From the NCBI RefSeq assembly GCF_002831685.1, contig NZ_CP025119.1, positions 1,399,001 to 1,463,000 on the forward strand: a stretch of 64,000 nt of DNA, read 5' to 3'. Made by a program: the position numbers and the translations under genes. Shown in pieces: positions 1 through 16,391 of this stretch. Below the pieces are notes generated by a model. The model was not told where the DNA came from, searched no databases, and worked only from the letters and a program-made list of their open reading frames with translations. Positions within the stretch are counted from its first letter, which is position 1, and each line of letters starts with the position of its first letter. This DNA comes from Polaribacter sp. ALD11. Lineage in GTDB: Bacteria > Bacteroidota > Bacteroidia > Flavobacteriales > Flavobacteriaceae.

Positions 1-1
1 T

Positions 2-997
2 GGTGATGATGAAGTTGGAAAACAAGAATTAGATAATTTTACAGATGTAGAAGAACGTTTTCCTGTAATTGCAACATCTTCTAAAATGTTAACTACAGGT
101 ATAGATACTAAAATGGTGAAATTTATTGTTTTAGAATCCAATATACAATCCGTTACAGAATTCAAACAAATAATTGGTAGAGGAACAAGAATACGTGAAG
201 CTGAAGGTAAAGTCTTTTTTACTATTATGGACTTTAGAAAAGCCACTAATATTTTTGCAAGACCCGATTTTGATGGAGATCCTGTTCAAATTTATGAACC
301 AACAGATGGTCAACCAGTTGTTCCTCCAGAAGAAGATGACATTACATTACCAAGTGATGGTGAAGAACCATTAATTCCTGATGATTTTAGACCAACAACT
401 CCAGATATAAATATCGACAATGAAGAAACAGAAGTTAGAAAATATTATGTGAACCAAGTTCCTGTTTCTATAGTAAATGAGCGAGTTCAGTATTATGGAA
501 AGGATGGTAAGCTAATTACAGAGTCTTTAAAAGATTACTCAAGAAAAAACATTACCAAGGAGTTTTCTTCTTTAGATGATTTCCTTCAAAAATGGAATGC
601 ATCTGAAAAGAAAGAAGAATTAATAAAGGAATTAGCAGAACACGGAGTTTTGTTAGAAGCGCTTCGTGAAGATGTTGGATTAGATTTAGACGATTTCGAT
701 TTAATTTGCCATATCGCATTTGACCAACCTGCTTTAACAAGAACTGAAAGAGCAAACAATGTTCGTAAGCGCAACTACTTTAGTAAATACTCTGATACTG
801 CTCAAAAAGTATTAAAGAGTTTACTAGATAAATACGAACAAGAGGGTATTGTGTCAATTGAACAAGGCTCTATCCTTAAAGTAAAGCCTTTAAATGAAAT
901 GGGATCACCTGTTGAGTTAGTGAGAGCCTTTGGAAAGCGTAAAGACTTTGAAAAAGCTGTTAAAGAATTAGAAAACGAAATATATAATATTGCTTAA
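2..997 (+). CDS. hsdR: Type I restriction enzyme R subunit, C-terminal part (5' end outside window)
   Basis: This is the motor/nuclease subunit of a type I restriction-modification complex; only the last ~331 residues are present, and the frame is open to the left edge. The visible N-terminal part carries the end of a superfamily 2 helicase domain: 'SSKMLTTGID' followed by 'QIIGRGTRI', the arginine-finger motif VI. An acidic linker follows, then a helical C-terminal region like that of EcoEI-type HsdR proteins. The nuclease and Walker A parts lie outside the window. The gene stops 2 bp before the DUF262 gene, so the genes from here to hsdS look like one operon. The identification rests on the helicase motif plus hsdM and hsdS downstream. 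Confidence 0.88.
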   Translation, partial: GDDEVGKQELDNFTDVEERFPVIATSSKMLTTGIDTKMVKFIVLESNIQSVTEFKQIIGRGTRIREAEGKVFFTIMDFRKATNIFARPDFDGDPVQIYEPTDGQPVVPPEEDDITLPSDGEEPLIPDDFRPTTPDINIDNEETEVRKYYVNQVPVSIVNERVQYYGKDGKLITESLKDYSRKNITKEFSSLDDFLQKWNASEKKEELIKELAEHGVLLEALREDVGLDLDDFDLICHIAFDQPALTRTERANNVRKRNYFSKYSDTAQKVLKSLLDKYEQEGIVSIEQGSILKVKPLNEMGSPVELVRAFGKRKDFEKAVKELENEIYNIA

Positions 998-999
998 AA

Positions 1000-3147
1000 A
1001 TGAAAATATCTCAAATAATCGATAAGATTGATGAAAAACAACTTTTTATACCTGCTTTCCAAAGAGAATATGTTTGGAAAAGAAAAAACGCTAAAGATTT
1101 AGTTTCATCATTAATCCAAGACTACCCAACTGGCACAATGCTTACTTGGGAGACTAATTATCCGCCAGAATTAAAAGGAGAACACAAATACGATGAACGA
1201 CAAGGTGCTGTAAAATTAATTTTAGATGGTCAACAACGTATTACTACATTATATATGTTAATGACAGGTAACATACCTCCTTATTATAAAAAACATGAAA
1301 TTTTAGTTGACATAAGAAACCTATATGTAAATGTTCAAACTTTAGTTCTTGAATATTATAAAATAACAATAATGCAAAATGACCCTTTATGGGTAAACAT
1401 TACAGATATTTTTCAAGGAAAAATTAGATATAGAGATGTAATACATCAATTAGAAGTTAATTTAGATGGAGAGCGAGTAGAAAGAGAAAAATCAGATTTA
1501 ATTGATGATAATTTTAGAGCTATTGAAAAAATAAAAGATAGAGATTTTCAAGAGCAAATTATACCACCAAAAGCCTCTTTAAAGGAAGCAATTGATATTT
1601 TTTATATTGTAAATGCGAGTGGAGTAAATCTTACAGATGCTGAATTAGCATTGGCGCAAATTTCTGGGTATTGGCCAGAAGCTAGAGATTTATTTAAAAC
1701 TAAACTCGTTCAATTAGAGAAAGATGGTTATGTTTTTAAGCTCGATTTTATCGTTTATGTACTGTTAGGCATATTGCATAATATGGGTTCTAAATTAGAC
1801 AAACTACACAGTCAAGATAATAAAGAAAACATAAAAAAAGCATGGAAAAGATTAGATGAAGACGTGTTAGATTATGTTTTTAACGTATTAAAAAGTCAAG
1901 CATATATAGACCATACTAAAGAAGTTAACTCTGTTTATGCCTTTGTACCAATTATTGTTTATGCTTACAATAAAGGTTCAAAAAAACTTACCCAAATAGA
2001 AATTAAGAAAGTAATAAAATGGTTTTATTATTCTCAAATTCGTCAACGTTATGTTAGTCAGTTACAACAGAAATTAGATAAAGATATTGGCATTGTTGCT
2101 AAAGATGAAAATCCTTTTGATAAACTTTTATCGATAATAGCTGCAGAACGTCCTTTAGAAATTAGTAAAGATGAATTTGTAGGTATAGGAATTAGTCATG
2201 CTCTTTGGGGTCTAATGAATTTTTATTTCAAAAGCAAAGGAGCAATTTGCTTTACAACAGGTATTAATATTCGTAAAAATATGGGTAAAAAATACGAACT
2301 CGAATGGGATCATATTTTTCCGTATTCTTTATTAAAACTTGAGGGTTATAATAGAAACAATAGAGTAAAATATAGTCTTGCACAAGAAATAACGAACAGG
2401 GCAATTCTAACACAACTTGGTAATCGCAAAAAAAGCAACCATTTAGCAGAAGGTTATTTAGAAGATACCTCAATACACTTTCCTGATGCTTTAGAAAAAC
2501 AATGCATTCCACAAGATAAGGAGTTGTGGAAAATGGAGAATTTTGAACTTTTTTTAGAAAAAAGAAGAATTCTTTTGGCAAAAGAACTCAATTATTTCTT
2601 AAATAATATCACAGAAACAAACTATGAATCTTTAGATATGGATATTGTAGAAATGATAATGTCTGGTGAAAATTCGCAGGTTGAATTTAAAACAACCATG
2701 CGTTATGACATGAGAGAAAATAAAGTAAATAAAAAATTAGAGCAAGTAATCTTAAAAACTTTAGCTGCATTCTCTAATGGTCAAGGAGGTACTCTAATTA
2801 TGGGAGTTACAGACGAACAAGATATTATAGGTTTAGAAAATGATTATAAAACCTTAAAAGACGCCAATAAAGATGAATTTGAGTTACATTTAAGAAATTT
2901 AATCAATCAAAATTACGGAGTTGATTTTGCTACAAATAATATAGAAATAACATTTCCTGAAGTAAATGAAACGGAAATTTGTGTTGTAGAAATAAAGCAA
3001 GGATTAAGACCTGTATATACAGAGATTACAGATAAAAATGGTGGAAAAAGCAAACGATTTTATGTGCGTAGCGGAAATTCATCACAAGAAATAGACATTA
3101 CAGAAGTAGCACAGTATATTAACCAAAGATTTGAAACAGTAGTTTAA
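1000..3147 (+). CDS. DUF262/DUF1524 (GmrSD/BrxU-like) protein fused to an AlbA_2/Schlafen-like domain
   Basis: A 715-aa three-part protein. Residues ~10-230 match DUF262: 'IPAFQREYVW' at 17-26 and the 'DGQQR' nucleotide-binding motif at 76-80. Residues ~400-500 look like the DUF1524 HNH nuclease, with 'WDHIFPYSLL' around D437-H438 and a downstream 'NRKKSNH'. Residues ~550-715 resemble an AlbA_2/Schlafen domain ('SQVEFKTT', then 'ALTFSNGQGG'-like 'AAFSNGQGGTLIMGV'). DUF262-DUF1524 proteins such as GmrSD and BrxU are type IV enzymes that cut modified phage DNA. The start lies 2 bp after the hsdR stop and the stop overlaps the hsdM start by one base, so it is co-translated with the type I system. 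The AlbA fusion is the unusual part. Its role (DNA/RNA binding or nucleotide sensing) is inference. Confidence 0.82.
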   Translation: MKISQIIDKIDEKQLFIPAFQREYVWKRKNAKDLVSSLIQDYPTGTMLTWETNYPPELKGEHKYDERQGAVKLILDGQQRITTLYMLMTGNIPPYYKKHEILVDIRNLYVNVQTLVLEYYKITIMQNDPLWVNITDIFQGKIRYRDVIHQLEVNLDGERVEREKSDLIDDNFRAIEKIKDRDFQEQIIPPKASLKEAIDIFYIVNASGVNLTDAELALAQISGYWPEARDLFKTKLVQLEKDGYVFKLDFIVYVLLGILHNMGSKLDKLHSQDNKENIKKAWKRLDEDVLDYVFNVLKSQAYIDHTKEVNSVYAFVPIIVYAYNKGSKKLTQIEIKKVIKWFYYSQIRQRYVSQLQQKLDKDIGIVAKDENPFDKLLSIIAAERPLEISKDEFVGIGISHALWGLMNFYFKSKGAICFTTGINIRKNMGKKYELEWDHIFPYSLLKLEGYNRNNRVKYSLAQEITNRAILTQLGNRKKSNHLAEGYLEDTSIHFPDALEKQCIPQDKELWKMENFELFLEKRRILLAKELNYFLNNITETNYESLDMDIVEMIMSGENSQVEFKTTMRYDMRENKVNKKLEQVILKTLAAFSNGQGGTLIMGVTDEQDIIGLENDYKTLKDANKDEFELHLRNLINQNYGVDFATNNIEITFPEVNETEICVVEIKQGLRPVYTEITDKNGGKSKRFYVRSGNSSQEIDITEVAQYINQRFETVV

Positions 3148-4577
3148 TGAGCAACATAACAACCAACATAAAAGGCATAAGAGATATTATGCGAAAAGAC
3201 ACAGGAGTAGATGGAGATGCACAGCGTATTTCGCAAATGGTCTGGATGCTTTTTATGAAAATATTTGCCGATAAAGAAGAAGAATGGGAAATTACCATAG
3301 ATAATTACGAATCGCCTATTCCTGAACATTTAAAATGGCAAAATTGGGCAGCAGATGATGAAGGAAAGACTGGTGATGAATTAATGGAGTTTATTGAAAC
3401 CGAATTATTTCCTACTCTAAAAGATTTAGATATTACGATAAGTCCACAAGCAAAAATTATACGTTCTGTATTTGATGATACTTATAATTTCATGAAAAAC
3501 GGAACGCTTTTTCGTCAAGTAATAAATGTTATTAATGAAATAGATTTTAATAGCACTTCAGAACGTCATGTGTTTAATGATTTGTATGAAACTATTCTAA
3601 AAGATCTGCAATCTGCAGGTTCTTCTGGTGAATATTACACACCAAGAGCTGTTACGCAGTTTATGGTAGATATGATTAACCCACAATTAGGAGAAAGCGT
3701 TTTAGATCCTGCATGTGGAACAGGTGGATTTTTAACTTGTACTATTGATGGCGTTCGTAATCAAGTAAAAACACCAAAAGACAGAGACATCTTACAAAAA
3801 TCGATACGTGGTATTGAGAAAAAACCATTACCTCATTTATTGTGTACCACAAACCTAATGTTACACGGTTTTGATTTACCTGTAGTTCGTAGAGACAATT
3901 TATTAAGTAAACCTTATGCAGATTGGGGAGCAAAAGACAAATTAGATATTATACTTTCTAACCCTCCTTTTGGTGGCGTTGAAGAAGATGGGACAGAAAC
4001 TAACTTCCCAAAAAAGTTTAGAACCAAAGAAACTGCCGATTTATTTTTAGCTTTAATCATAAAACTTTTAAAAAATAACGGACGTTGTGCAATCGTTTTA
4101 CCAGATGGAACTTTGTTTGGCGAAGGCATGAAAACACGTCTAAAAGAAGAGTTATTAGACAAATGTAACTTGCATACCATTGTGCGTTTACCTAATGGTG
4201 TTTTTAACCCATACACGAGTATTAAAACTAATTTATTATTTTTTGATAAAGGAACACCCACTAAAGAAATTTGGTATTATGAGCACCCTTATCCTGAAGG
4301 TGTAAAAAGCTATAATAAAGGAAAGCCGATTCATATCAAAGAGTTTGATACTGAAAAATCTTGGTGGAACAACCGTGAAGAAAACACACAAGCTTGGAAA
4401 GTTTCTATTGAAGAAATTAAAAAAAGAGGATATAATTTAGATATTAAAAACCCACACCAAGAGATAGATACTTTAGCAAGTCCAGAAATATTGTTAGAAA
4501 AATATAGAATAACCGAAAAGAAGATTTCTTCTATACAAGACGAAATTATAAATGTATTAACTGAAGCTTTAAAATAA
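3147..4577 (+). CDS. hsdM: Type I restriction-modification DNA methyltransferase M subunit
   Basis: N6-adenine methyltransferase subunit that modifies the host site and forms the core of the type I complex. It is 476 aa, typical for the family. Residues 1-~130 form the HsdM N-terminal helical domain. The SAM-binding motif 'DPACGTGGF' begins at D187, and the catalytic 'NPPFGG' motif begins at N272. The ATG overlaps the preceding stop (TAATG), and the stop is followed directly by hsdS. No damage to key motifs is visible. Confidence 0.96.
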   Translation: MSNITTNIKGIRDIMRKDTGVDGDAQRISQMVWMLFMKIFADKEEEWEITIDNYESPIPEHLKWQNWAADDEGKTGDELMEFIETELFPTLKDLDITISPQAKIIRSVFDDTYNFMKNGTLFRQVINVINEIDFNSTSERHVFNDLYETILKDLQSAGSSGEYYTPRAVTQFMVDMINPQLGESVLDPACGTGGFLTCTIDGVRNQVKTPKDRDILQKSIRGIEKKPLPHLLCTTNLMLHGFDLPVVRRDNLLSKPYADWGAKDKLDIILSNPPFGGVEEDGTETNFPKKFRTKETADLFLALIIKLLKNNGRCAIVLPDGTLFGEGMKTRLKEELLDKCNLHTIVRLPNGVFNPYTSIKTNLLFFDKGTPTKEIWYYEHPYPEGVKSYNKGKPIHIKEFDTEKSWWNNREENTQAWKVSIEEIKKRGYNLDIKNPHQEIDTLASPEILLEKYRITEKKISSIQDEIINVLTEALK

Positions 4578-4578
4578 T

Positions 4579-6273
4579 ATGCAGTTACTAAAACATTTTA
4601 AAGAACTTACGGTTAGACCTAAAAATGCCCAAGAATTAAAAGGTTTGATTTTACAATTGGCAATACAGGGGAAATTGACAGCTAATTGGAGAACAGAGAA
4701 CCCAGATGCTTTAACTGCTATAGAATTATTGAAACGAACGCAAATAGAAAAAGAACAACTTGTAAAGGATAAAATATTAAAAAAAGAAAAACCTTTACCT
4801 GAAATGGATGATGAAGTTCCTTTTCAAGTACCAATTAAATGGAAATGGGATAATTTGGGAGCATTAGGTTCTGCACAAACAGGAACAACACCTCCAACTA
4901 AAAATCCTGAAAATTATGGAACATATATTCCCTTTTTAGGACCAGCAGATATTTCTAATAGTACAATGTTGTATCCTAAAGAAGGATTGTCAAAAGTAGG
5001 TTTGGAAAAAGGAAGATTAATTGACTCTAACTCCTTAATGATGGTATGCATTGGAGGTAGTATGGGGAAATGCAATATAAATAGAATAGATGTAAGTTGT
5101 AATCAACAAATAAATATTTTAACACCTATTTATTCACTTGTCGAATATGTTAAAATTATCTGTCAATCACCATATTTTCAAAAAGAAATTTGGGAAAGGT
5201 CAACAGGTTCTGCAACTCCAATGATTAATAAAAACAAGTGGTTGCAAATTCCTGTTTCTGTCCCACCACTTGAAGAACAAAAAGAAATTGTAAAAGTAGT
5301 AGAAACCCTTTTTAAAGAAGTAGAACAATTAGAGCAATTAACAGTTAAACGAATTGGTTTAAAAGAATACTTTATAACTTCTGCTTTAAAACAGCTCACT
5401 ACAGATAATGCAAAACAAGAATGGGTTTATCTACAAGACCATTTTAAAAGCTTCTTTAATGAAACCTCTAATATTAAAAAGTTAAGAGAAACGGTTTTAC
5501 AATTAGCTGTACAAGGAAAGTTAACAGCAGATTGGCGAGAAAATAATCCAGATACAGAAGATGCTTCTATTTTACTAAAACGTATCCAAAAAGAGAAAGC
5601 ACAACTTATTAAAGAAAAAAAAATAAAAAAGGAAAAAGTCTTACCAAAAATTTCTAAAGAGGAAATTCCTTATGCTTTGCCTGAAGGTTGGGTTTGGTGT
5701 AGATTACAAGATTTAGTAAATGTAGGTACAGGTTCTACACCTGCAACTTCCGATTCATCTTACTATGGAGGTGAAGTTCCTTGGTATACAAGTTCAGCCA
5801 CTAATGATTTGTTTGCAAAAGAATCAGAAAAACTAATTACAGAAAAAGCTCTAAAAGAAACAAATTGTAAAGTTTTCCCAGAAGGAACATTAATAATTGC
5901 AATGTATGGTCAAGGTAAAACTCGTGGGCAAATAAGTGAATTAGTTATTCCTGGAGCAACTAATCAAGCTGTTGCTGCAATGGTTTTCTATAAAAACTCA
6001 AAAGATTTTAAAGAATATATAAAATACTTCTTTAGAAAAATATATGATGAAATTAGACTTTTAGCAGAAGGAGGAGCACAACCTAATTTAAATGTTGGTA
6101 AAATTAAAAACACAATTCTACCACTTCCACCACTAGAAGAACAAAAAGCCATCGTTCAAATGGTAAATTCATTAATGAGTTTATGTGATAAGTTAGAGCA
6201 AGAAGTGCTACAAAGCCAAGAACATAGTGAGCAGTTAATGCAGAGTTGTTTGCGGGAGGTTTTTGAAAAATAA
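4579..6273 (+). CDS. hsdS: Type I restriction-modification specificity S subunit
   Basis: DNA-recognition subunit, 564 aa, with two target-recognition domains. Each half opens with the same conserved block ('LQLAIQGKLTANWR' near residue 25; 'LQLAVQGKLTADWR' near residue 307), then a coiled 'LLKR.Q.EK.QL.K' helix, a variable target-recognition domain and a 'PPLEEQK' helix. These internal repeats are typical substrates for recombination between S genes. The last 36 codons (from 6163) recur downstream at 7150-7278, after the next gene. No site-specific invertase is visible in the window. Confidence 0.95.
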   Translation: MQLLKHFKELTVRPKNAQELKGLILQLAIQGKLTANWRTENPDALTAIELLKRTQIEKEQLVKDKILKKEKPLPEMDDEVPFQVPIKWKWDNLGALGSAQTGTTPPTKNPENYGTYIPFLGPADISNSTMLYPKEGLSKVGLEKGRLIDSNSLMMVCIGGSMGKCNINRIDVSCNQQINILTPIYSLVEYVKIICQSPYFQKEIWERSTGSATPMINKNKWLQIPVSVPPLEEQKEIVKVVETLFKEVEQLEQLTVKRIGLKEYFITSALKQLTTDNAKQEWVYLQDHFKSFFNETSNIKKLRETVLQLAVQGKLTADWRENNPDTEDASILLKRIQKEKAQLIKEKKIKKEKVLPKISKEEIPYALPEGWVWCRLQDLVNVGTGSTPATSDSSYYGGEVPWYTSSATNDLFAKESEKLITEKALKETNCKVFPEGTLIIAMYGQGKTRGQISELVIPGATNQAVAAMVFYKNSKDFKEYIKYFFRKIYDEIRLLAEGGAQPNLNVGKIKNTILPLPPLEEQKAIVQMVNSLMSLCDKLEQEVLQSQEHSEQLMQSCLREVFEK

Positions 6274-6283
6274 AAAATAAGAT

Positions 6284-7138
6284 ATGTTATTGTCATTTAA
6301 TGATAGTCAAGAAATAAAGGAAAAATATATACTCGCAACGCAAGATTGGTTAAAGAAGAAAATAGACCCTAAATCTGCGCAAGAGATAGCACATGAATTA
6401 TTTAAAACATCAAAAACATTTACATCTTCTGAATGTGTTTTAGAGAATTATGAAGACTTTCCTACTAATTTAGGTTTACCAGATTGGTTAGGTAACTTGT
6501 TGTTTACTTTTAATCATTATAATTCAAAAAGTTTTAGTGGTTTTGGAGAAAATTATGAAGAACATTTTTATCCAAATTTTTTAAAATCTTGTAATGTAGG
6601 AGTAGATTATTCTTTACTATTTCATCAATGGGAATTAATGATTTTAACAGAAATGCTTCCCAAGCAAGAACAATCAACAAAATATTTTACAGAATTAATT
6701 AATTTACACAAAAATGCTCTTGCTTTTAAAGCCACAGACCACAAAGAATGGATTAGTTTACAAAGAGAAATAGATAATTATTTACAAAATGTAAATGAAT
6801 TTACTGGTGTACCCAAAAAAGTTGGTTTAAAAGAGATTGAAATCTTTGAGAATTTGCAAAGTGGTAAAGGCAATCATAAAGAAGCCTACGGTTATAGAAG
6901 GTACAGAGAGTCTTATGGGAAAATAATTAGAAATTCAGGTAGAGTTGCTTATTTATCAATTGAAAATCATATAAATAAAGTAGATCCTTATACTACATCA
7001 GCAGAAGCAATTGTTGATGCTTTGGTAGAAGAGTCAATTAATAACAAAGTAGATATTGTAAATGAACAAGAATTTAGAAAAAACGTGTGGACTCAATTAA
7101 TTAAAAGATTAATTGTGATGTTAAAAGACTGGAAATAA
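6284..7138 (+). CDS. Unrecognised 284-aa protein carried behind hsdS
   Basis: I do not recognise this family. The protein is soluble and mostly helical by eye, with no signal peptide or membrane segment. It has many aromatic residues ('DWLGNLLFTFNHYN', 'YGYRRYRESYGK') and a charged C-terminus ending 'RLIVMLKDWK'. The gene starts 10 bp after hsdS and is followed by a second copy of the hsdS 3' end, so it is bracketed by hsdS sequence. The position suggests an accessory, regulatory or cargo defence gene acquired with an S-gene rearrangement. Function unknown. Confidence 0.75.
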   Translation: MLLSFNDSQEIKEKYILATQDWLKKKIDPKSAQEIAHELFKTSKTFTSSECVLENYEDFPTNLGLPDWLGNLLFTFNHYNSKSFSGFGENYEEHFYPNFLKSCNVGVDYSLLFHQWELMILTEMLPKQEQSTKYFTELINLHKNALAFKATDHKEWISLQREIDNYLQNVNEFTGVPKKVGLKEIEIFENLQSGKGNHKEAYGYRRYRESYGKIIRNSGRVAYLSIENHINKVDPYTTSAEAIVDALVEESINNKVDIVNEQEFRKNVWTQLIKRLIVMLKDWK

Positions 7139-7149
7139 AAATAATAAAA

Positions 7150-7278
7150 GTAAATGCTTTAATGGGTTTATGTGATAGTTTAGAGCAAGAAGTACAGCAA
7201 AGCCAAGAACATAGTGTGCAGTTAATGCAGAGTTGTTTGAGGGCGGTTTTTGAGGGTGAGAGTAAAGTTGAAATTTAG
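7150..7278 (+). pseudogene. hsdS 3'-end remnant (duplicate of the hsdS C-terminus)
   Basis: Forty-three in-frame codons ending in TAG encode 'LMGLCDSLEQEVQQSQEH' followed by 'LMQSCLRAVFEGESKVEI'. The hsdS C-terminus at 6163-6273 reads 'LMSLCDKLEQEVLQSQEH' followed by 'LMQSCLREVFEK'. DNA identity is also high over ~110 bp. No start codon or target-recognition domain precedes it, so it is a leftover of a second S gene or of the original S-gene end after insertion of the 284-aa gene. It ends 8 bp before the AAA ATPase start. Confidence 0.88.
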
Positions 7279-7286
7279 GATTAATA

Positions 7287-9215
7287 ATGGTGAAATACAC
7301 AAAAGAGTTAAAGTCAAAACTTTTTAGAAAAATAAATAATTATCCTAATGCTTTTAACGCAGTAGAGGATGAAGGGTATGATGGTATTGTTAGATTTTTA
7401 AATAACATTTGGGATTTAAAAGCACTCCCTTCTCCAAATGATACTAGATGGTCTAATGGCTATGATGATGCTGTTCAACATCTAATTAACAATGATGATT
7501 GGTCTTATGAATATACATTTTTAGATAGATTTAATTTATTAGAAAGTGATGAATTTTTTACTAAATTTTTAGAAACATTAGTTCATCCAGATTTTAGAAA
7601 AGATTTACAAAATATAGAATTTTATGTAACTCTGGTTAATGTTGAATTAGCAAGTATTAAATACAATTTAGCTGTTTCTGACTATAAGGAAGACTTACCT
7701 ATTTATACCTTAAAAAAAAGAAAGGAAAATGATAAAAGTGATATATTAGAAAACTCTATACCTTTTATTGTTGATGGTTTTAACTCTGAAAACGTGGAAT
7801 ATCCTTATTTTAATTTAAGTTCAAATAATTGGGATGATTATGGGAGTGAGACTACATTTCGATTATTTTATCATAACGGAATACGTGATATTACAAAAAT
7901 AGGAGATTTAAAAATAACAGATGGTAAAAGTGATGTCACATTAGAAGTAATTGATAAACAATTTAATATACTAAATAATGGATTCTGTTCACTTGGTCAA
8001 GATGAAGATTATTATAAAAATCTTCAAAGAATTTTTAAACACAAATTATCTAGTATTTTATTTGCCTTAAAGGATGCTGCATATTTTATTGAAATTAATG
8101 ATAAATTTAGTACTAATACTATTTATCAATATTCTTTAACAAGAGGAGATTATGCAGAACAACTTTCCAGAAACATTAAACCAATTCTAGAAGGAATAAA
8201 CCTAGAGGACAAATACAAGTTCATATATAATTTTACACCAAACTATTCATCTACTCCCGTTGATATTAATTTAAGTTTCAATGATTCTTTAGAGTTTTCT
8301 GATAGAATTTTTGCTATTATAGGTAAAAATGGAGCAGGTAAAACACAACTTATAACAAATTTACCAGTTGATATATCAGAGTCCAAAGAAAATTCATTTA
8401 AACCTCATAAACCAATTTTTAGTAAAATAATTGCTGTTTCTTACAGTGTGTTTGATAATTTTGAAAAGCCAAAGCATAAAGTTGATTTCAACTATGTATT
8501 TTGTGGTTTATTAAATGATGATAAAAAATTTCCTTCCAAAATTGAGAAAAATCAAATAATCCTTGAAGCCTATAGCAAAATAAAGTACCATAACAGAATA
8601 TATAAATGGAAAAATATTTTGTCAAACTTTATAGATATAGATGTTATAGATGATGTGTTTGTTTCAAATAGTTTACGAGGTGTTGGTGATGAAAATGAGT
8701 TTTTGATAAACGAAGCTAAATTTATCGCTGTCATTGATAAATTAAGTTCAGGGCAAAGTATAATGTTAGAGATAATGACAAAAATAATAGCAAACATTAG
8801 ATTTGACTCATTGATACTTTTTGATGAACCAGAAACACATTTGCATCCAAACGCAATTTCACAACTAATTAGTACAATATATGAATTGGTAGAATCCTTT
8901 GATTCTTATTGCTTAATAACAACACATTCTCCAATAATAATTCAAAATATATTTGGAAAAAATGTTTATGTTATGGAGAAAGATAGTAACGTGCCTTCAT
9001 TAAGAAAAATCGGAGTGGAAAGTTTTGGAGAGAATCTAACAGTATTAACCGAGGATGTTTTTTCTAATAGTGAGATCAATAAGCAGTATAAAGTTATACT
9101 TGATAAAATGATTGAGAAGTATTATGATTACGAAACTATACTGGAAAAAATAGAAAACGATAAATTACCATTAAGTCTAAATGCTAAAATTTATATTAAA
9201 AGTAAATTAGCATGA
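7287..9215 (+). CDS. AAA/ABC-type ATPase of a two-gene ATPase-HNH (Septu-like) defence pair
   Basis: A 642-aa ATPase. The first ~335 residues are a specific N-terminal region in which I recognise no domain with confidence. The ATPase domain follows: Walker A 'GKNGAGKT' at 346-353, ABC-like signature 'LSSGQS', Walker B 'LILFDEPETHLHP' with D513-E514, and a switch histidine in 'TTHSP'. This arrangement fits AAA_21/OLD-like ATPases that drive a partner nuclease. Its stop overlaps the HNH gene start by 4 bp (ATGA), the usual coupling of PtuA-PtuB-type pairs. The N-terminal region is longer than in standard PtuA as I know it, so 'Septu-like' is a class assignment, not proof. Confidence 0.8.
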   Translation: MVKYTKELKSKLFRKINNYPNAFNAVEDEGYDGIVRFLNNIWDLKALPSPNDTRWSNGYDDAVQHLINNDDWSYEYTFLDRFNLLESDEFFTKFLETLVHPDFRKDLQNIEFYVTLVNVELASIKYNLAVSDYKEDLPIYTLKKRKENDKSDILENSIPFIVDGFNSENVEYPYFNLSSNNWDDYGSETTFRLFYHNGIRDITKIGDLKITDGKSDVTLEVIDKQFNILNNGFCSLGQDEDYYKNLQRIFKHKLSSILFALKDAAYFIEINDKFSTNTIYQYSLTRGDYAEQLSRNIKPILEGINLEDKYKFIYNFTPNYSSTPVDINLSFNDSLEFSDRIFAIIGKNGAGKTQLITNLPVDISESKENSFKPHKPIFSKIIAVSYSVFDNFEKPKHKVDFNYVFCGLLNDDKKFPSKIEKNQIILEAYSKIKYHNRIYKWKNILSNFIDIDVIDDVFVSNSLRGVGDENEFLINEAKFIAVIDKLSSGQSIMLEIMTKIIANIRFDSLILFDEPETHLHPNAISQLISTIYELVESFDSYCLITTHSPIIIQNIFGKNVYVMEKDSNVPSLRKIGVESFGENLTVLTEDVFSNSEINKQYKVILDKMIEKYYDYETILEKIENDKLPLSLNAKIYIKSKLA

Positions 9216-10030
9216 AAAATATAAAGTGTTATTCAAAAAATGCTCTTACTTTTCATAAAAATATAGTTAATGATAGTTTGAATAAAGGAGAGGATAAAGA
9301 TAATTTATTAAAAAACGAATCTGATATAACTAAAGCATATGCAGATTACAAAGATAAGTTTAATAAGAATAATTTGTTTACTATTTCTGCGCATGGTTTT
9401 GATGGTGAGGATAAAGCAAATCTCTTAAAGCTTTATTCATCGCAAAGAAAGTCTATTATACAACTCAAAATAGAGCTAACAACAAATGAATTAAAACAAA
9501 GAATAAATACTTGTCCTAATTGCACAATAGAGAAAGTGGCTTCTTTAGATCATTATATCCCAAAGGATGAATTCCCTGAATTTTCGGTTAACCCAATTAA
9601 TCTAGTGCCTTGTTGTTCGACTTGCAACTCTAAAAAGAAAGAAAATTGGAAAGATGATAAGCAGTTATTATTTTTAAATCTCTATTCAGACATAATTCCT
9701 CTTTCGCAATATTTGTTTGTAAATGTGATATCGAAGACAGAATTTACATTTGAATTAAAAAATGTATCTAAAATAGATTCAAACCTTTTTAAAGTTATTG
9801 GTAGTCATTATGGTAAGTTGAATTTATTACAACGTTTCAGAGAAGATTCTGATGAAGTTATTTCGGAATTAGATTTACTAATTTCTAATGGAAGAGATTC
9901 ATTTAACAATGATACAAAGCTTGAAAAATTTATTAATAATCACTACTCTACAGTAGAAAAAAGAGATGGTGTTAATAATTGGAAGGTAGTACTTGTAAAA
10001 GCAATGCTAAACAGTAAAATTTATTTCTAG
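9212..10030 (+). CDS. HNH endonuclease partner of the upstream ATPase (PtuB-like)
   Basis: A 272-aa HNH nuclease. Zinc-binding pairs C101/C104 and C135/C138 frame the catalytic region: 'LDHYIPK' with H114, and 'NPINLVPCCSTCNSKKK' with N130. Residues 1-90 are helical and charged; residues 150-272 form an extra C-terminal region. It begins inside the ATPase stop codon (ATGA overlap), so the two products are probably made in fixed ratio and act together, with the ATPase controlling DNA cleavage. The family is clear; the phage trigger is unknown. Confidence 0.82.
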   Translation: MKNIKCYSKNALTFHKNIVNDSLNKGEDKDNLLKNESDITKAYADYKDKFNKNNLFTISAHGFDGEDKANLLKLYSSQRKSIIQLKIELTTNELKQRINTCPNCTIEKVASLDHYIPKDEFPEFSVNPINLVPCCSTCNSKKKENWKDDKQLLFLNLYSDIIPLSQYLFVNVISKTEFTFELKNVSKIDSNLFKVIGSHYGKLNLLQRFREDSDEVISELDLLISNGRDSFNNDTKLEKFINNHYSTVEKRDGVNNWKVVLVKAMLNSKIYF

Positions 10031-10040
10031 TTATAATAGA

Positions 10041-10166
10041 ATGACAATGATCAAACCACAAACCATACAAATATATTTACCAAATGATTCGCCAACTATT
10101 ATTGGTAAAACAGGTCGCATTTTAATACAAGTAGAAAGTTTGGCAGAGATGTTTATGAAAGAGTAA
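10041..10166 (+). pseudogene. Possible fragment of a GIY-YIG nuclease gene
   Basis: A 41-codon open frame opens with 'MIKPQTIQIYLPN', which resembles the N-terminus of the small GIY-YIG nucleases often found in type I restriction loci. After ~25 residues the similarity ends and the frame closes ('ESLAEMFMKE'). The catalytic GIY and YIG segments are missing. It is probably a decayed fragment. Alternatively, this 161-bp gap serves as leader, or RNA antitoxin region, for the deaminase gene that starts 25 bp later. Similarity is from memory. Confidence 0.45.
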
Positions 10167-10191
10167 AAATTAAATAAAAAAAGAAAAAGAT

Positions 10192-12150
10192 ATGAGTTTA
10201 AACAATTTTTATAAATTACGTAAAAACTTTATACTGTTAGGTTTAACAGGAAAAATGCAATCTGGTGCAACTGCAATCGCAGATTTATTAAGTAAAGAAA
10301 ATTTGGATAAAAAACAAAAAGATTTTTTTTCTGAATTTCAAGAAACTTACAAAGGAGTTAGTGCTAGTGAATCAAGTAAGATTAGAAGGATTAATGATTT
10401 TTTTAAATATGATAGTAACTGGGTAAGGTTTGATGTTTTAGATTATAGAAATGTTTTAATCTTATTTATATTACATCATAATTATGATGATGATACTGAA
10501 AAATTTGCAGAAAATATAGCTAATTGGATTTGTAGTTTAGGAGATTATAAAAATGATTTTGAAACCCCTCGATTTGGTGGAACAGTAGGTATTGCAAAGG
10601 GTAGTTCAATTTTCTTGAAAACAGAATTTAAAGATGCTATATTAAATCCACTTTCAGAATTAAACATTTCTTTTAACACTGACACTTTATTAGAATTTTT
10701 AAAGGAAACTAACGACGATTTCTTCTTTAATAAAAACTTTCAAGAATTTGCAAAATGCTTTCACGACAAATTAGATAGTTATAGTCCGTTTCTAAAACAT
10801 AAGCTAATGCATGTATCAGCATATTGTTTAAGACGTTTTGGTTCATTAGATATAAAGATAATCAAAGAAAATACTAAAGATATAGGTTTACAACATATAT
10901 ATATAATTGCAGATGCCATTAACCGTCTAATCAAAATTCATAGGAAAGCATCAAAAAAAGAAGATAAAGTAGCACATGTAATTATTGATAGATTAAAAAA
11001 CTCCTATGAGTTAATGTATTTTAAAGAAAAATATTCTGGTTTTTATATGGTTTCTTCAAATTGCAATCAAAAAGAAAGACAATTAAGAATTAAAGAAAAA
11101 TACAATAATCAAACTTTTACAACAGATAAAGAAGAAAACCTAAAACTAATATCAGATTTAGACGAGTTAGAGTATAAAGTAAAAGAGTTCAAAGCAGGGG
11201 TATTTGATGGGTTTGATGTTGAAAATTGTGTTCAAAAAGCAGATTATCATACATATTTAGATAAAATTTTAGATAATGATTCTATAATAGAAAAATTTGC
11301 ACAAGCTTCAAAAAAGGTGAAAAATAAAAAAATAGATAGAACGAACGAATTTTATATTTATCAGCCACTATCATTACAAATATTAAAACTAATAGCACTA
11401 ATACAACAACCTGGTTTAATTACACCTACTTATATTGAGCGTATTATGCAAATAGCGCATACTACAAAGTTAAATTCTGGTTGTATTTCAAGACAAGTTG
11501 GTGCTGTTGTAACAGACGCTAGTTTTTCCGTAAAAGGTATTGGCTGGAATGACGTACCTGAAGGACAAACACCATGTGCAAATAGGGATTTAAGGGATTT
11601 AGTAAATGATAAAAAGATAGGCTTTACTCAATTCGAATTAGGTGATACAGAACATACATATGATGATGGAAAAAGTTTTAATGAAAAAATAAAATTCGAC
11701 TATAGTTCATCTTCTGAAAATATAGATGAAAAATTAGAAGGTAGACCATGTTCTTTTTGTTTTAAAACATTTCATAACAAATATGAAGGGGTAGACAACC
11801 AAGTTCACACTAGATCTCTGCACGCAGAAGAGAATGCCATGCTTCAGATTGCTAAAAATGGTGGACAGGGATTAAAAAGAGGCAATCTTTTTACAACTGC
11901 ATCACCTTGTGAGCTTTGTTCTAAAAAAGCATTTCAATTAGGTATTAAAAATATTTTTTATATCGATTTATACCCTGGTATTTCAGAAAAACATATTCTA
12001 CAAGGAGGAACAAATTCTAATTCCAATCCAAAATTATATCAATTTCAAGGCGTTATAGGTAGAGGCTATCAAAAACTATATGAACCTTTTATGACGATTA
12101 AAGATGAAACTATTTTAAGGTCAAGTATTCAACCTACTCCAAAAAAATAG
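10192..12150 (+). CDS. Anti-phage dCTP/dCMP deaminase (AvcD-like; P-loop plus deaminase)
   Basis: A 652-aa protein with the two-part layout of antiviral cytidine deaminases. The N-terminus has a kinase-like P-loop, 'GLTGKMQSGAT' at 17-27. The C-terminal third is a zinc deaminase: 'HAEENAML' with H544 and E546, and 'PCELC' with C573 and C576. Extra cysteines lie in 'RPCSFCFKTF'. Known AvcD/DCD enzymes convert dC nucleotides to dU forms on infection and starve phage of dCTP. In the Vibrio system a small RNA (AvcI) restrains the enzyme; the 161-bp gap upstream is the place to look here. It could act alone in this island. Confidence 0.85.
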   Translation: MSLNNFYKLRKNFILLGLTGKMQSGATAIADLLSKENLDKKQKDFFSEFQETYKGVSASESSKIRRINDFFKYDSNWVRFDVLDYRNVLILFILHHNYDDDTEKFAENIANWICSLGDYKNDFETPRFGGTVGIAKGSSIFLKTEFKDAILNPLSELNISFNTDTLLEFLKETNDDFFFNKNFQEFAKCFHDKLDSYSPFLKHKLMHVSAYCLRRFGSLDIKIIKENTKDIGLQHIYIIADAINRLIKIHRKASKKEDKVAHVIIDRLKNSYELMYFKEKYSGFYMVSSNCNQKERQLRIKEKYNNQTFTTDKEENLKLISDLDELEYKVKEFKAGVFDGFDVENCVQKADYHTYLDKILDNDSIIEKFAQASKKVKNKKIDRTNEFYIYQPLSLQILKLIALIQQPGLITPTYIERIMQIAHTTKLNSGCISRQVGAVVTDASFSVKGIGWNDVPEGQTPCANRDLRDLVNDKKIGFTQFELGDTEHTYDDGKSFNEKIKFDYSSSSENIDEKLEGRPCSFCFKTFHNKYEGVDNQVHTRSLHAEENAMLQIAKNGGQGLKRGNLFTTASPCELCSKKAFQLGIKNIFYIDLYPGISEKHILQGGTNSNSNPKLYQFQGVIGRGYQKLYEPFMTIKDETILRSSIQPTPKK

Positions 12151-12189
12151 TAATCATCTTTTAAAATAATTAACTCAAAAATCTCCGCT

Positions 12190-14151
12190 ATGAGACTTCT
12201 TACCAAATCACGATTTAAATTAGGACTAGAATGTCCAAACAAACTTTACTACACTCGTAAAAAAGAATATGCTAATAAAAAGCAAGAAGATCCTTTTTTA
12301 CAAGCATTAGCACAGGGTGGTTTTCAGGTAGAAGAATTAGCAAGAATGCATTATCCAAATGGGATTCTTATTGAAGGAAATGATGGAGATTATGAATTAC
12401 TTTGGGAACAAACACAAAAATTATTAGAACAAGAAAACGTAATAATATATGAACCTGCTTTTCTTGTTAATGGCTTATTTATAAGAGTAGATGTTTTAGT
12501 GAAAAAAGGAAATAATATTGAGCTGATTGAAGTAAAATCGAAATCCTTTACACCAGATGATGATAATCTATTTATAGGTAAAAAAGGTGGAATGGTTTCT
12601 AGTTGGAAACCTTATTTGTTTGACATTGCTTTTCAAAAGTATGTTATTCAATTATCCTACCCTGCTTGGAACATTCATTCTTACTTAATGATGGCAGATA
12701 AATCTAAAAAATCAAGTATTGATGGATTGAATCAATTGTTTAGAATCAGTAATAAAGGAGAAAACAGGACAGGTGTAATAAAAAAAGTAGAAACACTAGA
12801 TGAAACAGGAAGTCCTGTTTTAGGAAGAAAAAATGTTACCAAAATTATAGCGGATATTGAATCAAATAAATATTTGTATCATGATAGTTTGACTTTTCAA
12901 GAATCAATAAAGTATTTAAAAGAAGCCTATTTAAAAGATAAATATGCAAACTGGCCAACAAGTTTTAACTCTTGTAAAAGTTGTGAATTTACTTGTACAA
13001 ATGATGACGAACTACTTGGTTTAAAATCTGGGTTTAAAGAGTGTTTTACGAAACAGCACCTTTGGACAGAAAATGATTTTAATAAAGAAAATATTTTTGA
13101 TATTTATTACTTCACACAAGGTAAAAAACTATTTAATGAAGGTGTTTTATTTAAAGATCAGCTCACTGAAGAAAATATTAATTTAAAGGAAGAATTAGGG
13201 AAATTAAGCAGAACTAATCGACAAATTCTACAGATAGAAAAAGCGGTAAATAATGATAATTCATATTTTGTAGACAAAGAAGGTTTAAAGGAAGAGATCG
13301 ATAACTGGAACTTTCCTTTACATTTTATAGATTTTGAAACTAGTACGGTAGCGCTACCCTTTAATAAAGGATTAAAACCTTATGAGCAAGTTGCTTTTCA
13401 ATATTCTCATCATATTTATTATAAAAATGGACATATAGAACATGCCAATGAATACATAAACAACAAAGCAGGTTTTTTCCCAAACTTTGAGTTCATTCGT
13501 TCTCTAAAGAAAGCTTTAGAAAATGATGAAGGAACAATTTTTAAATATTCTAGTCATGAAAACACCATATTAAACGCAATTTATGTTCAATTATTATCAT
13601 CTTCTGAACCAGACAAGAAGGAATTAATAGATTTCATTCAACATATTTCACACTCAAAAAATGATAGCACCACTAAATGGAAAGGGAAACGCGATATGGT
13701 GGATTTATGGGTGGTTCAAAAAAATTTCTATTACAATCCGTTAACAAAGGGTTCAAATTCTATAAAAGCTGTTTTACCAGCTTCGTTAAGCTCCAGTAAC
13801 TTATTAAAAGAAAAATATTCACAACCAATAAAAAACATCAATGTTACAAGCCAAAATTTTTCTGAAGATCATATTTGGCTGAAAACTGATGAGGGAAAAA
13901 TAGAAAACCCTTATAAAATGTTGCCTTCTGTATTTGAAGGCTGGAGTGAAGAACAACTAGAAAATACATTATCCGAAATTGAAGATATAGATAATGGTGG
14001 TGCAGCACTTACAGCCTATGGAAAATTGCAATATACGGATATGGAGCAAGAAGAAATTGATGAATTGACAACAGCTCTACTTAAATATTGTGAGTTAGAT
14101 ACACTAGCAATGGTTATGATATTTGAACACTTTAAAGAGTTAGTAGAATAG
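12190..14151 (+). CDS. DUF2779 domain protein, putative nuclease
   Basis: A 653-aa protein of the DUF2779 family. The N-terminal part looks like a Cas4/PD-(D/E)XK nuclease: 'LGLECPNKLYY' near the start, 'ELIEVKSKS' with the E-x-K core near residue 116, and a cysteine cluster 'CKSCEFTC' near residue 260 that could bind an iron-sulfur cluster with the first cysteine. The C-terminal half opens with 'HFIDFET' (D381, E383), an RNase H/DEDD exonuclease-like start, and ends with 'YCELDTLAMVMIFEHF'. It follows the deaminase by 39 bp. Biochemical role is not established to my knowledge; a nuclease role is inferred from motifs. Confidence 0.75.
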   Translation: MRLLTKSRFKLGLECPNKLYYTRKKEYANKKQEDPFLQALAQGGFQVEELARMHYPNGILIEGNDGDYELLWEQTQKLLEQENVIIYEPAFLVNGLFIRVDVLVKKGNNIELIEVKSKSFTPDDDNLFIGKKGGMVSSWKPYLFDIAFQKYVIQLSYPAWNIHSYLMMADKSKKSSIDGLNQLFRISNKGENRTGVIKKVETLDETGSPVLGRKNVTKIIADIESNKYLYHDSLTFQESIKYLKEAYLKDKYANWPTSFNSCKSCEFTCTNDDELLGLKSGFKECFTKQHLWTENDFNKENIFDIYYFTQGKKLFNEGVLFKDQLTEENINLKEELGKLSRTNRQILQIEKAVNNDNSYFVDKEGLKEEIDNWNFPLHFIDFETSTVALPFNKGLKPYEQVAFQYSHHIYYKNGHIEHANEYINNKAGFFPNFEFIRSLKKALENDEGTIFKYSSHENTILNAIYVQLLSSSEPDKKELIDFIQHISHSKNDSTTKWKGKRDMVDLWVVQKNFYYNPLTKGSNSIKAVLPASLSSSNLLKEKYSQPIKNINVTSQNFSEDHIWLKTDEGKIENPYKMLPSVFEGWSEEQLENTLSEIEDIDNGGAALTAYGKLQYTDMEQEEIDELTTALLKYCELDTLAMVMIFEHFKELVE

Positions 14152-14338: not shown

Positions 14339-15325
14339 ATGACTAATTTCATACATATACAAGAGTTTTTTGATACTTTAAATTTTGATATAGAAATTAT
14401 ACATCAAAATAATGACTCAAAAAACGAAGAGCCTATTTATTCTATAAATAATGAAAAAGTATTTATAGAAGTAAAGAATGAGATAAGACCACAAAGTGTA
14501 ACCTCTTTTATTCATCAAAAAGATAAAAAAACACCACTACTTATTGCTTCAAAATATATTACACCAAAAGCAAAAAACATCTTAAAAGAAAATAACATAA
14601 ATTATATAGATAGTTTTGGAAATGCCTTTATTCATTTAAAAAATCTAAAAATTTTCATTGAGCAAGGCAATGCAAAACCTGCTGTTAGTAATTATTCGAA
14701 TATACTAACACAAGCCTCTGCCCAAATTATCTTTCAATTGCTTAAAGACCCTGCTCAAATTAATGAAACACAGCGTTATTTAGCACATATAAGTAAAGTA
14801 TCATTAGGTAGCGTTAGTAAATGTATGAAAGCGCTTTTAGATGAAGGTTTTGTAGTAAAATGGAATAAAGAGGAGAAATATCAATTAGTAAGAAGAGATG
14901 AATTATTAGAAAAATGGATAACGTTATGTAACGAAAAAATACTACCAGCATATAAAATTGGTAGGTTTACTTTTTCTAAACAACATAACAATTGGGAAAC
15001 ACAATTGAACAATAGCGAAGCTCTTTGGTCAGGTGAACCTGCAGCTTCATTGATTACAAAATATCTCAATCCAGAGCAGTTTTCATTATTCACTGATAAG
15101 AATAAACAAGAAATAATAACACAATTAAAACTAGTGCCAGATATAAATGGCGAAATCACCATTTACGCACCTTTTTGGATCGTTAGTAAACCTATTGAAA
15201 GAGTTAATATTCAAAATGTAGTAGATCCTTTAATTATATATGCAGAATTAATATATAGTAATAACAATAGAAATATAGAAACAGCACAAATACTATTTAA
15301 TGAATACATCAAACCAAACCTTTAA
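14339..15325 (+). CDS. abiEi: AbiEi-family antitoxin (type IV toxin-antitoxin, winged-helix regulator)
   Basis: A 328-aa protein, cognate to the nucleotidyltransferase toxin encoded next. Residues 1-110 form an N-terminal domain. Residues ~120-185 form a winged-helix module ('AQIIFQLLKDPAQINETQRY', then 'VSLGSVSKCMKALLDEGFV', a clear recognition helix). The C-terminal domain ('ALWSGEPAASLITKYL') matches the region that blocks the toxin in AbiE systems. The start follows two palindromes and a promoter box. Its 3' end overlaps the toxin gene by 26 bp, so the two are translationally coupled. It is longer than the classical lactococcal AbiEi. Confidence 0.82.
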   Translation: MTNFIHIQEFFDTLNFDIEIIHQNNDSKNEEPIYSINNEKVFIEVKNEIRPQSVTSFIHQKDKKTPLLIASKYITPKAKNILKENNINYIDSFGNAFIHLKNLKIFIEQGNAKPAVSNYSNILTQASAQIIFQLLKDPAQINETQRYLAHISKVSLGSVSKCMKALLDEGFVVKWNKEEKYQLVRRDELLEKWITLCNEKILPAYKIGRFTFSKQHNNWETQLNNSEALWSGEPAASLITKYLNPEQFSLFTDKNKQEIITQLKLVPDINGEITIYAPFWIVSKPIERVNIQNVVDPLIIYAELIYSNNNRNIETAQILFNEYIKPNL

Positions 15326-16151
15326 ACAGTATTCATTTGCGCATCACGCAAAAGTATATGCTATTTTAGAAACTGTTTTCGCTGAATATGGAATAACTTA
15401 TTACTTAATTGGAGCTAATGCAAGAGATGTTCAGTTATATAAACAAGGTATAAAACCCACAAGAGGTACTGCTGATATTGATTTTGCAGTTATGATTCCC
15501 GATTTTGAAATATACAATTCAATTTTTGAAGCTTTATGTGCTAGAGGTTTTAGAACTACAAAAGAAGCTTACAGATTAGTTTTTGATGAAACAAATACTG
15601 TTTTAGATTTGATGCCTTACGGAAAAATAGAACAAGAATACACCGTTAACTTTACAGAAAGAGAATTATCGTTGTCCGTATTAGGTTTTAAAGAAGTAGG
15701 AGAACATATTGAAACAGTAAACATCAAAGAAGAAAACTACACACTTCCAGTATCACCTGTAGAAGGATTAATCATTTTAAAATTAATTTCATGGGAGGAT
15801 AAACCAGAGTTAAGAATGAAAGATTTAGAAGATATTTCATTCTTATTACAGCATGCTTGGTCTTTGTATGAAGAGGAAGCATATAGTAATCATTTAGATT
15901 TATTTGATGATAATTTTGATACACAAATTACTGCAGCAAGAATTATTGGCAGAAAAATGAAACCAATTATAAATCAGAATGAAAAACTAAAAAATACGAT
16001 TATAAATATTCTTAAAAAAAGCAGTGTAAAAAAAGATAAAGCAGAAAACCCAGAGATTATACTGGCTCAAACTATGAACAAATCTATAGAAGAAATTAAT
16101 ATTTTGGTTTCAAGTATTTTAATGGGAATTAATGATGACTTAAAACAATAA
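15300..16151 (+). CDS. abiEii: AbiEii/AbiGii-family nucleotidyltransferase toxin
   Basis: A 283-aa toxin of the DUF1814 nucleotidyltransferase family. The polymerase-beta-like core is visible: 'YYLIGANARDV' as the G-rich motif, then 'RGTADIDFAV' supplying the catalytic acidic pair, and a later 'TVLDLMPYG' acid. Known members transfer nucleotides to tRNA or other acceptors and stop growth on infection; the substrate here is unknown. The gene starts inside the 3' end of abiEi. It is the last gene before the tRNA cluster. Confidence 0.85.
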   Translation: MNTSNQTFKQYSFAHHAKVYAILETVFAEYGITYYLIGANARDVQLYKQGIKPTRGTADIDFAVMIPDFEIYNSIFEALCARGFRTTKEAYRLVFDETNTVLDLMPYGKIEQEYTVNFTERELSLSVLGFKEVGEHIETVNIKEENYTLPVSPVEGLIILKLISWEDKPELRMKDLEDISFLLQHAWSLYEEEAYSNHLDLFDDNFDTQITAARIIGRKMKPIINQNEKLKNTIINILKKSSVKKDKAENPEIILAQTMNKSIEEINILVSSILMGINDDLKQ

Positions 16152-16280: not shown

Positions 16281-16314
16281 AAAGCCTTCAAAACCAAATG
16301 GTTAAGAAGACTTT
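16281..16314 (-). terminator. Rho-independent terminator of the tRNA operon
   Basis: Arms 16281-16289 and 16306-16314 pair over 9 bp with one G-U, with an inner AACC/GGTT extension. On the minus strand a T-rich tract follows (16271-16280 and beyond). It sits 4 bp after the tRNA-Arg 3' end. Confidence 0.7.
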
Positions 16315-16317
16315 AAG

Positions 16318-16391
16318 TGAGCCCTGAAGGATTCGAACCTTCGACCGCCTCCTTAGAAGGGAGGTGCTCTATCCAGCTGAGCTAAGAGCCC
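16318..16391 (-). tRNA. tRNA-Arg (anticodon TCT)
   Basis: The cloverleaf is visible on the minus strand: acceptor GGGCTCT/AGGGCTC, D arm 'AGCTCAGCTGGATAGAGC', anticodon stem CCTCC/GGAGG around CTTCTAA (anticodon TCT), and T arm with GGTTCGAATCC. Discriminator A, no encoded CCA. Its 3' end faces the defence island, making it a candidate integration site. Confidence 0.95.

Follow-up and report, generated by a model that had tools for sequence, protein, structure and literature searches.

How does the 3′ end of hsdS, the restriction specificity gene, come to stand a second time beyond an unrecognised gene, directly in front of a defence-type gene pair? This question was raised by a window of 64,000 nucleotides (G000:C1:1399001-1463000), part of a genome that consists of a single 3.57-Mb contig. 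From left to right, the genes run hsdR, GmrSD/Schlafen, hsdM, hsdS, a 284-aa gene, the orphan hsdS tail, PDC-M01A/B, a DUF4357 remnant, a dCTP deaminase-like gene, DUF2779 and an AbiE-like pair (Table 1).

Table 1. Features of the hsd locus and its surroundings, in window coordinates.
Feature	Position	Strand	Basis or remark
hsdR, 3′ part	1..997	+	EcoEI_R_C, REase_I; gene 790 aa in all, begins outside the window (L052 8626-10998)
715-aa GmrSD_N + Schlafen/AlbA_2 protein, in the hsdR-hsdM slot	1000..3147	+	Pfam PF03235, PF04326
hsdM, conserved left anchor	3147..4577	+	domain matches; comparison with 16 related loci
hsdS, intact, 564 aa, two recognition-domain stretches	4579..6273	+	PF01420 twice
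hsdS own tail, repeat copy 1	6163..6266	+	direct-repeat search
284-aa cargo gene, 10 nt 3′ of hsdS	6284..7138	+	undescribed family, predicted all-helical
Orphan hsdS tail (scar), 42 residues + stop, frame still open	7150..7278	+	repeat; tail-model match
PDC-M01A ATPase with AbiJ_NTD3 N-terminus, right neighbour of the scar	7287..9215	+	PDLC04240, E 1e-303; PF18860, PF13304
PDC-M01B	9212..10030	+	PDLC04266, E 3e-87
DUF4357 gene-start remnant, 41 aa	10041..10166	+	13/19 residues shared with G577 protein, pairwise E 3e-8
Anti-phage dCTP deaminase-like protein	10192..12150	+	NCBIfam match below cut-off, 294 of 400 bits
DUF2779 protein	12190..14151	+	domain match; G779 homologue 81% identical
AbiEi-like/AbiEii-like pair, right end of the element	14339..16151	+	PF09952, PF08843
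Right attachment repeat, 23 bp, in tRNA-Arg 3′ end	16312..16334	.	tRNA-Arg 16317-16391, minus

Within window positions 1-14000, the longest direct-repeat family is the pair 6163-6266 and 7150-7253, with 104 nt at 89% identity and a spacing of +987; repeat search and alignment thus bore out the duplicated tail, its lengths and its spacing as the earlier note had described them. The orphan frame 7150-7278 translates as VNALMGLCDSLEQEVQQSQEHSVQLMQSCLRAVFEGESKVEI followed by a stop codon (42 residues), and the hsdS end reads VNSLMSLCDKLEQEVLQSQEHSEQLMQSCLREVFEK. The orphan matched its own hsdS tail at blastn E 2e-36 and a 133-nt model of 17 intact tails, the window's own included, at nhmmer E 4e-30, with homology beginning slightly upstream, at about 7145, at an A-tract. 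This model was scanned over both strands of 34 oriented sequences (596 kb); on the same loci reversed, its best match reached only E 2.8. In the whole genome, copies of the tail were found in these two places only.

The gene between the tails had been called unrecognised, and searches at sequence level agreed: no described family in Pfam, PADLOC or NCBIfam matched the 284-aa protein. Its predicted structure is all helix (mean pLDDT 75), and a structure search with the model returned merely middling helical matches. Ten other members were found, 41-61% identical, and we regard the family as rare, undescribed and probably all-helical. The gene occurred in 1 of 59 relatives and 2 of 395 class genomes (its own genome counted in both), and none was found in plasmids or viral contigs; in the genome-contig scan, an alignment query recovered three that a single-sequence query had missed. 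Four other loci were inspected, in Flavobacterium Leaf82, F. xueshanense, F. frigidimaris and G228. They amount to three contexts, because the left flank in F. frigidimaris reads nearly as that of Leaf82; the F. frigidimaris contig (L004) ends 68 bases past the matched ORF, so that its right side is unseen. The Leaf82 homologue lies upstream of genes that we take to be conjugation-like, and that of F. xueshanense lies 350 bp after LmuAB. As tblastn gave no match to hsdS, hsdM or hsdR in any of the four, a role as a regular hsdS partner was ruled out. By its surroundings, the gene reads as a single gene in several settings, at least two of them defence-rich (the window and F. xueshanense), and a defence function of its product is putative.

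Tails of this kind recur in related genomes. The orphan peptide, searched against 166 genomes of the genus, matched at 13 places in 12 of them. The contrary case named by the earlier note, in which the fragment would belong to an intact gene unrelated to hsdS, was not encountered: all 13 places are hsdS tails, intact, broken or orphan. The nearest to an exception is a decayed tail in G571, which carries an internal stop and reads in frame into the next helicase ORF. Besides the window, tails without an S body were found within the genus in G512, G530 and G571. The same search across 397 family genomes gave matches in 101, and among the matches listed, G866, G876, G812 and G594 had short-frame tails and G661 had one close to the start of a contig. 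All tail-model matches at E 1 or better lay on the hsdS strand, or on the strand of the tail where no intact S gene was present; loci of the latter kind were oriented by the tail itself, so strand agreement there is built in.

Among 17 near-hsdM loci, which were those fetched from the top family and genus matches listed and are not a random sample, a firm orphan tail lay downstream of an intact hsdS on one contig in four: the window (+877), G866 (+1237), G876 (+695) and G577 (+1972; nhmmer E 0.023, own-tail blastn E 1e-9). Two more loci carry weak tails, G800 at +303 and +1158 and G686 at +381, which gave own-tail blastn values of E 3e-5 to 7e-5 but no nhmmer match at E 1; in one further locus (G661) the orphan lies on a separate contig. 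The orphan-tail repeat is neither unique nor a simple local duplication. One opposite-strand nhmmer match inside an M01A gene (L147, E 5.5e-4) was taken as chance, and E values near 1e-4 alone were consequently not trusted. The G523 tail (E 1.4e-4), a decayed HsdS tail at about 5795-5960 on the reverse strand of L044, was retained, since it translates into a recognisable HsdS tail; the genes near it resemble CBASS parts. The G594 tail, which nhmmer missed, reads as an HsdS tail of another subfamily.

In the relatives, orphan tails sit between defence genes (PDC-S26, DRT2, PDC-M62, PDC-M01). In three cases, the orphan tail stands on the same strand before a gene whose homologue directly follows an intact hsdS elsewhere, with matching junctions. 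First, the orphan tail at 137-199 of the G661 contig L104 runs into a 137-aa gene; a homologue 62% identical to it has its start overlapped by the intact hsdS of G779, with a TATGTGT junction in both. Second, the G866 orphan runs into a 203-aa gene and the intact hsdS of G668 into a 40% homologue, both via the junction TTTAGGTATGAGTGAA. Third, a decayed tail in G577 and G512 precedes a PDC-M62A-type gene, and the intact hsdS of G661 and G902 overlaps a homologue (33-40% to that of G661; the G902 copy is decayed). In addition, the G876 scar lies one gene before a dCTP deaminase, a 67% homologue of which is the first gene after hsdS in G638. These right-hand matches indicate that the orphan tails concerned are former hsdS ends, marking genes that once followed them. 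For the window's own neighbour, M01A was searched in the 166 genus and 397 family genomes, and the seven best loci were retrieved, five with a full-length relative and two with a shorter one: no intact hsdS directly before a close M01A relative was found, the seven loci gave no hsdS match, and the full-length relatives show 41-47% identity. In G512, a tail stands before an M01A that is 29% identical to that of the window.

Several such scars can stand in a row. G512, in which no intact hsdS is present at the locus, reads hsdR remnant, tail, PDC-S26, tail, M01A/B, decayed tail and PDC-M62A-type gene; the names PDC-S26 and PDC-M62A-type come from scans of the G866 and G577 homologues. The third tail is weak alone (E 0.1); together with its spacer it matches the G577 counterpart in 97 of 107 aligned columns, with one 10-base gap. 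G577 carries the oldest G512 layer beneath a DRT2 layer, and the newer layers differ between the two genomes. The PDC-S26 gene of G512 is 93.6% identical to the G866 copy between hsdS and scar; from its end into the scar, 51 of 61 columns align, and the genes past the scar differ. With its three tails, this layering is the pattern that successive displacement makes. Across the 17 loci inspected, the first gene downstream of hsdS was of DRT2 type in three and of PDC-M62A type in two, and otherwise different.

Further downstream in the window, the 41-aa remnant matches the start of a G577 protein that has a DUF4357 domain, and in G577, G866, G686, G903, G668 and G512 complete genes with this start follow hsdS or a tail; we read the remnant as another sign of turnover. 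The dCTP deaminase-like gene has a 78% identical homologue in G779, one gene past the intact hsdS. Two side observations concern the neighbours of the tails. In G876 (L102, reverse strand), genes of 226 aa (9603-10283) and 189 aa (10416-10985) without a Pfam or PADLOC match flank the scar and are, by position, candidate defence genes. In L039, L101 and L111, a similar reverse-strand frame precedes the DRT2-type reverse transcriptase gene, as if this upstream stretch were conserved, perhaps as a non-coding RNA.

We favour, with moderate confidence, the explanation that orphan tails arose by sequential displacement of hsdS alleles by an incoming hsdS and its cargo. In the window, an older hsdS allele would have stood directly before PDC-M01A/M01B, and the orphan tail would be its surviving 3′ end. 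The incoming DNA, a new hsdS followed by the 284-aa gene, would have recombined on the left by a homologous crossover in conserved hsdR/hsdM (or the hsdS start) and on the right through a join within the old hsdS tail that involved little or no homology. The body of the old S gene would thereby be lost, and the tail and its old neighbour would remain one layer further back; repeated rounds would build a stack of defence modules with decaying hsdS tails between them. The order of these steps, the crossover places and homology-facilitated illegitimate recombination are what we infer from the sequences. The earlier note had offered insertion through S-gene recombination or collapse of a second S gene. 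Its recombination at the hsdS 3′ end stands, with the cargo flanked by the intact hsdS and the last part of a different S gene, and the two ideas merge, since the orphan, nearest to the tails of other genomes, would be what remained at the 3′ end when the body of an older allele was displaced.

This reading draws on the recurrence of tails, their right-hand matches, the layers in G512 and G577, the HsdM comparison and the element ends (both below), and on tail similarity, a comparison that rests on about 104 nt. Against intact tails, the window orphan reaches 94.2% identity in G902 and G903, which belong to other genera, and 91.3% in G661 and G577; its own tail, at 87.5%, ranks 7th of 17. The median difference between intact tails is 17%. 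That the orphan is nearer to foreign tails than to its own favours the end of another allele. Elsewhere the test is not uniform, the own tail ranking fifth in G866, tied first in G876 and first in G661. The last two count against displacement, since duplication would give exactly this, and they agree with a different origin, in which the hsdS body stayed and DNA made up of a tail and cargo recombined in the resident tail (Campbell-type or one-ended homology). Such an insertion predicts precisely the tail-cargo-tail structure, and it would fit the recurrence of the PDC-S26 + tail unit with different right neighbours. However, the window orphan is nearer to the tails of six other genomes than to its own, and the cargo starts 10 nt after hsdS in both the window and G876, as if it had arrived with that hsdS; we consider insertion with tail duplication unlikely. 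Two further points count against displacement: a before/after pair within one species was not seen among the genomes compared, and the loci fetched for M01A gave no intact hsdS directly before a close relative of it.

The positions of the junctions bear on all of these explanations. In the 133-nt model, the 12 orphan tails start at positions 3, 6, 7, 10, 10, 12, 20, 26, 33, 68, 71 and 71, and none at position 1. Several starts lie at or near the A-tract of the EEQKAIV codons, and that of the window lies at the next A-tract. A tail-based search favours finding short remnants; whole-hsdS tblastn on the same loci revealed no longer hsdS remnant behind hsdS, bar a weak 30% stretch in G668, which lies 2.2 kb behind hsdS inside a 674-aa ORF and was excluded from the tail count. 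The clustering of right junctions in the conserved tail, which a blind illegitimate join would not predict, counts against displacement, which needs retention of downstream expression signals or A-tract joining added to it. Our guesses are that joins fall in the tail through A-tract joining, or through selection that keeps the start signals of the overlapping next gene.

Deletion can end in the tail as well. The start of hsdR is fused in frame to an hsdS tail in G812 (126-aa ORF, L105 9362-9742) and G530 (L069, about 7708-7876), and in G512 the hsdR remnant runs into the tail in the same frame with a stop codon between. By their structure, the G812 and G530 fusions read as scars of whole-operon deletion, in two separate cases. 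These scars lend some weight to a collapse of a second S gene or a second restriction-modification operon, which would leave a tail behind. However, no tandem pair of intact hsdS genes was present in the 17 related loci, where 2.7-12.2 kb was read after hsdS, and an extra full S gene would be required for each layer, three of them in G512; we judge collapse somewhat less likely still than insertion.

The same hsdR scars speak to an integron-like process, in which the hsdS tail would serve as an attachment site for small cassettes and a site-specific recombinase would act on it. Several orphan starts do lie near one A-tract, in the EEQKAIVEKV codons. Yet the 987-bp unit holds no recombinase ORF, so that the dedicated integrase and fixed site of integrons have no counterpart here, the starts spread over model positions 3-71, and the scars joined to the hsdR start share this location, which is thus not peculiar to cassettes. 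We consider this origin very improbable. Phase-variable hsdS loci are also known to carry partial S sequence beside an intact S gene. Unlike these, with their recombinase and their inverted repeats or spare recognition domains, the window orphan is a direct repeat on the same strand without a recognition domain, there is no third genomic copy of the tail, and the unit lacks a recombinase ORF.

Besides sequential displacement, we tentatively raise the possibility that the conserved hsdS 3′ end acts as a docking seam, at which a defence gene with its tail would move by homologous recombination into any related hsdS locus, so that type I restriction operons would build and trade stacks of defence genes without an integrase. 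As for the loss or exchange of the cassette that the earlier note had envisaged, the PDC-S26 + tail unit, shared by two genomes that are alike at its left junction and unlike in what follows on the right, makes exchange at tails over evolutionary time plausible; present-day recombination between the two 104-bp copies in the window is putative.

The locus as a whole also appears to be mobile. An exact copy of the 23-bp repeat in the tRNA-Arg 3′ end lies at G000:C1:1388130-1388152, about 27.2 kb away, adjoining a 411-aa tyrosine integrase, and the genes between this left repeat and hsdR include HTH, DUF5906, primase, DUF5712 and ParA. Defence-carrying integrative elements at tRNA genes are a known kind, and an integrase next to a direct repeat of a tRNA 3′ end is characteristic of them. 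On these features, we assign the hsd locus to the cargo of an integrative element of about 27 kb at tRNA-Arg, together with M01AB, the dCTP deaminase-like gene, DUF2779 and the AbiE-like pair. The window resembles the known elements in its tyrosine integrase, tRNA-Arg repeat, replication-type genes and defence cargo, and differs in its internal tail scars, which are separate from the element ends. Under displacement, the element would carry the stack and may supply incoming homologous DNA. DUF5906 genes also occur near the G577 hsd locus and, with an integrase, near the G571 tail.

HsdM is 88-95% identical to that of the window in 14 of 16 related loci and 84% in the other two, and the two nearest (95%) come from other genera. 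In 10 of 12 loci from other genera, HsdM is 90-95% identical where the protein that we identified as GyrA is 80-82%; in the remaining two, G800 and G686, HsdM is 84% and GyrA 80 and 83%. Since HsdM is more alike than GyrA across genera, the hsd operon appears to move between them. Separately, the hsdR-hsdM junction (window 997-3147 and its counterparts in relatives) was found to be a second variable slot. Depending on the locus, it holds GmrSD-Schlafen, another GmrSD-type gene, a 278-aa gene, a 129-aa gene or nothing; the slot gene abuts or overlaps hsdR and hsdM in the window and G779, and G577 has a protein 89% identical to the 715-aa protein in the equivalent position.

The arrangement recalls the T6SS effector/immunity arrays summarised for Vibrio cholerae, in which a new module enters behind a conserved upstream anchor and displaces the old gene, an old 3′ end or neighbour is left further back, stacks result and homology-facilitated illegitimate recombination is proposed; Rhs C-terminal displacement is cited there as a similar process (PMC5361080). 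As in those arrays, a conserved upstream anchor is common to hsd loci with different downstream modules (HsdM, 16 loci). Unlike in them, the displaced gene here would be a restriction specificity subunit, of which a tail of about 40 codons is left; the genes retained next to it are of a stand-alone defence type, lack effector/antidote logic and match PADLOC defence models or nothing where the T6SS and Rhs arrays have immunity genes. Because that feature is missing and no close M01A was found beside hsdS, we regard the hsd tail stack, by analogy, as a variant that would work like these arrays and not as a member of them. Type I hsd loci that hold other genes have been outlined for Campylobacter jejuni, with the linked extra ORFs rlo/mlo (PMC5183652), and for the E. 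coli immigration control region, where the hsd locus is a variable place (PMC3874165); the hsdS-tail scars and stratified arrays of the window are absent from these summary descriptions. No description of hsdS-tail arrays was found in the literature searched, mostly open-access titles and the beginnings of abstracts.

Gene content is the usual basis for inferring how defence islands grow. With scars of a single conserved gene between the modules, the gains would acquire a direction and an order: the scars would link each module to the specificity gene that it came in with and would mark candidate defence genes by position alone, as for the 284-aa, 226-aa and 137-aa families. If the docking seam is true, the tails would be recombination sites as well as a datable record of arrival order. 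Judging from the sequences compared, tail scars in the relatives, sometimes several in a row, appear to allow the order in which defence genes arrived to be read.
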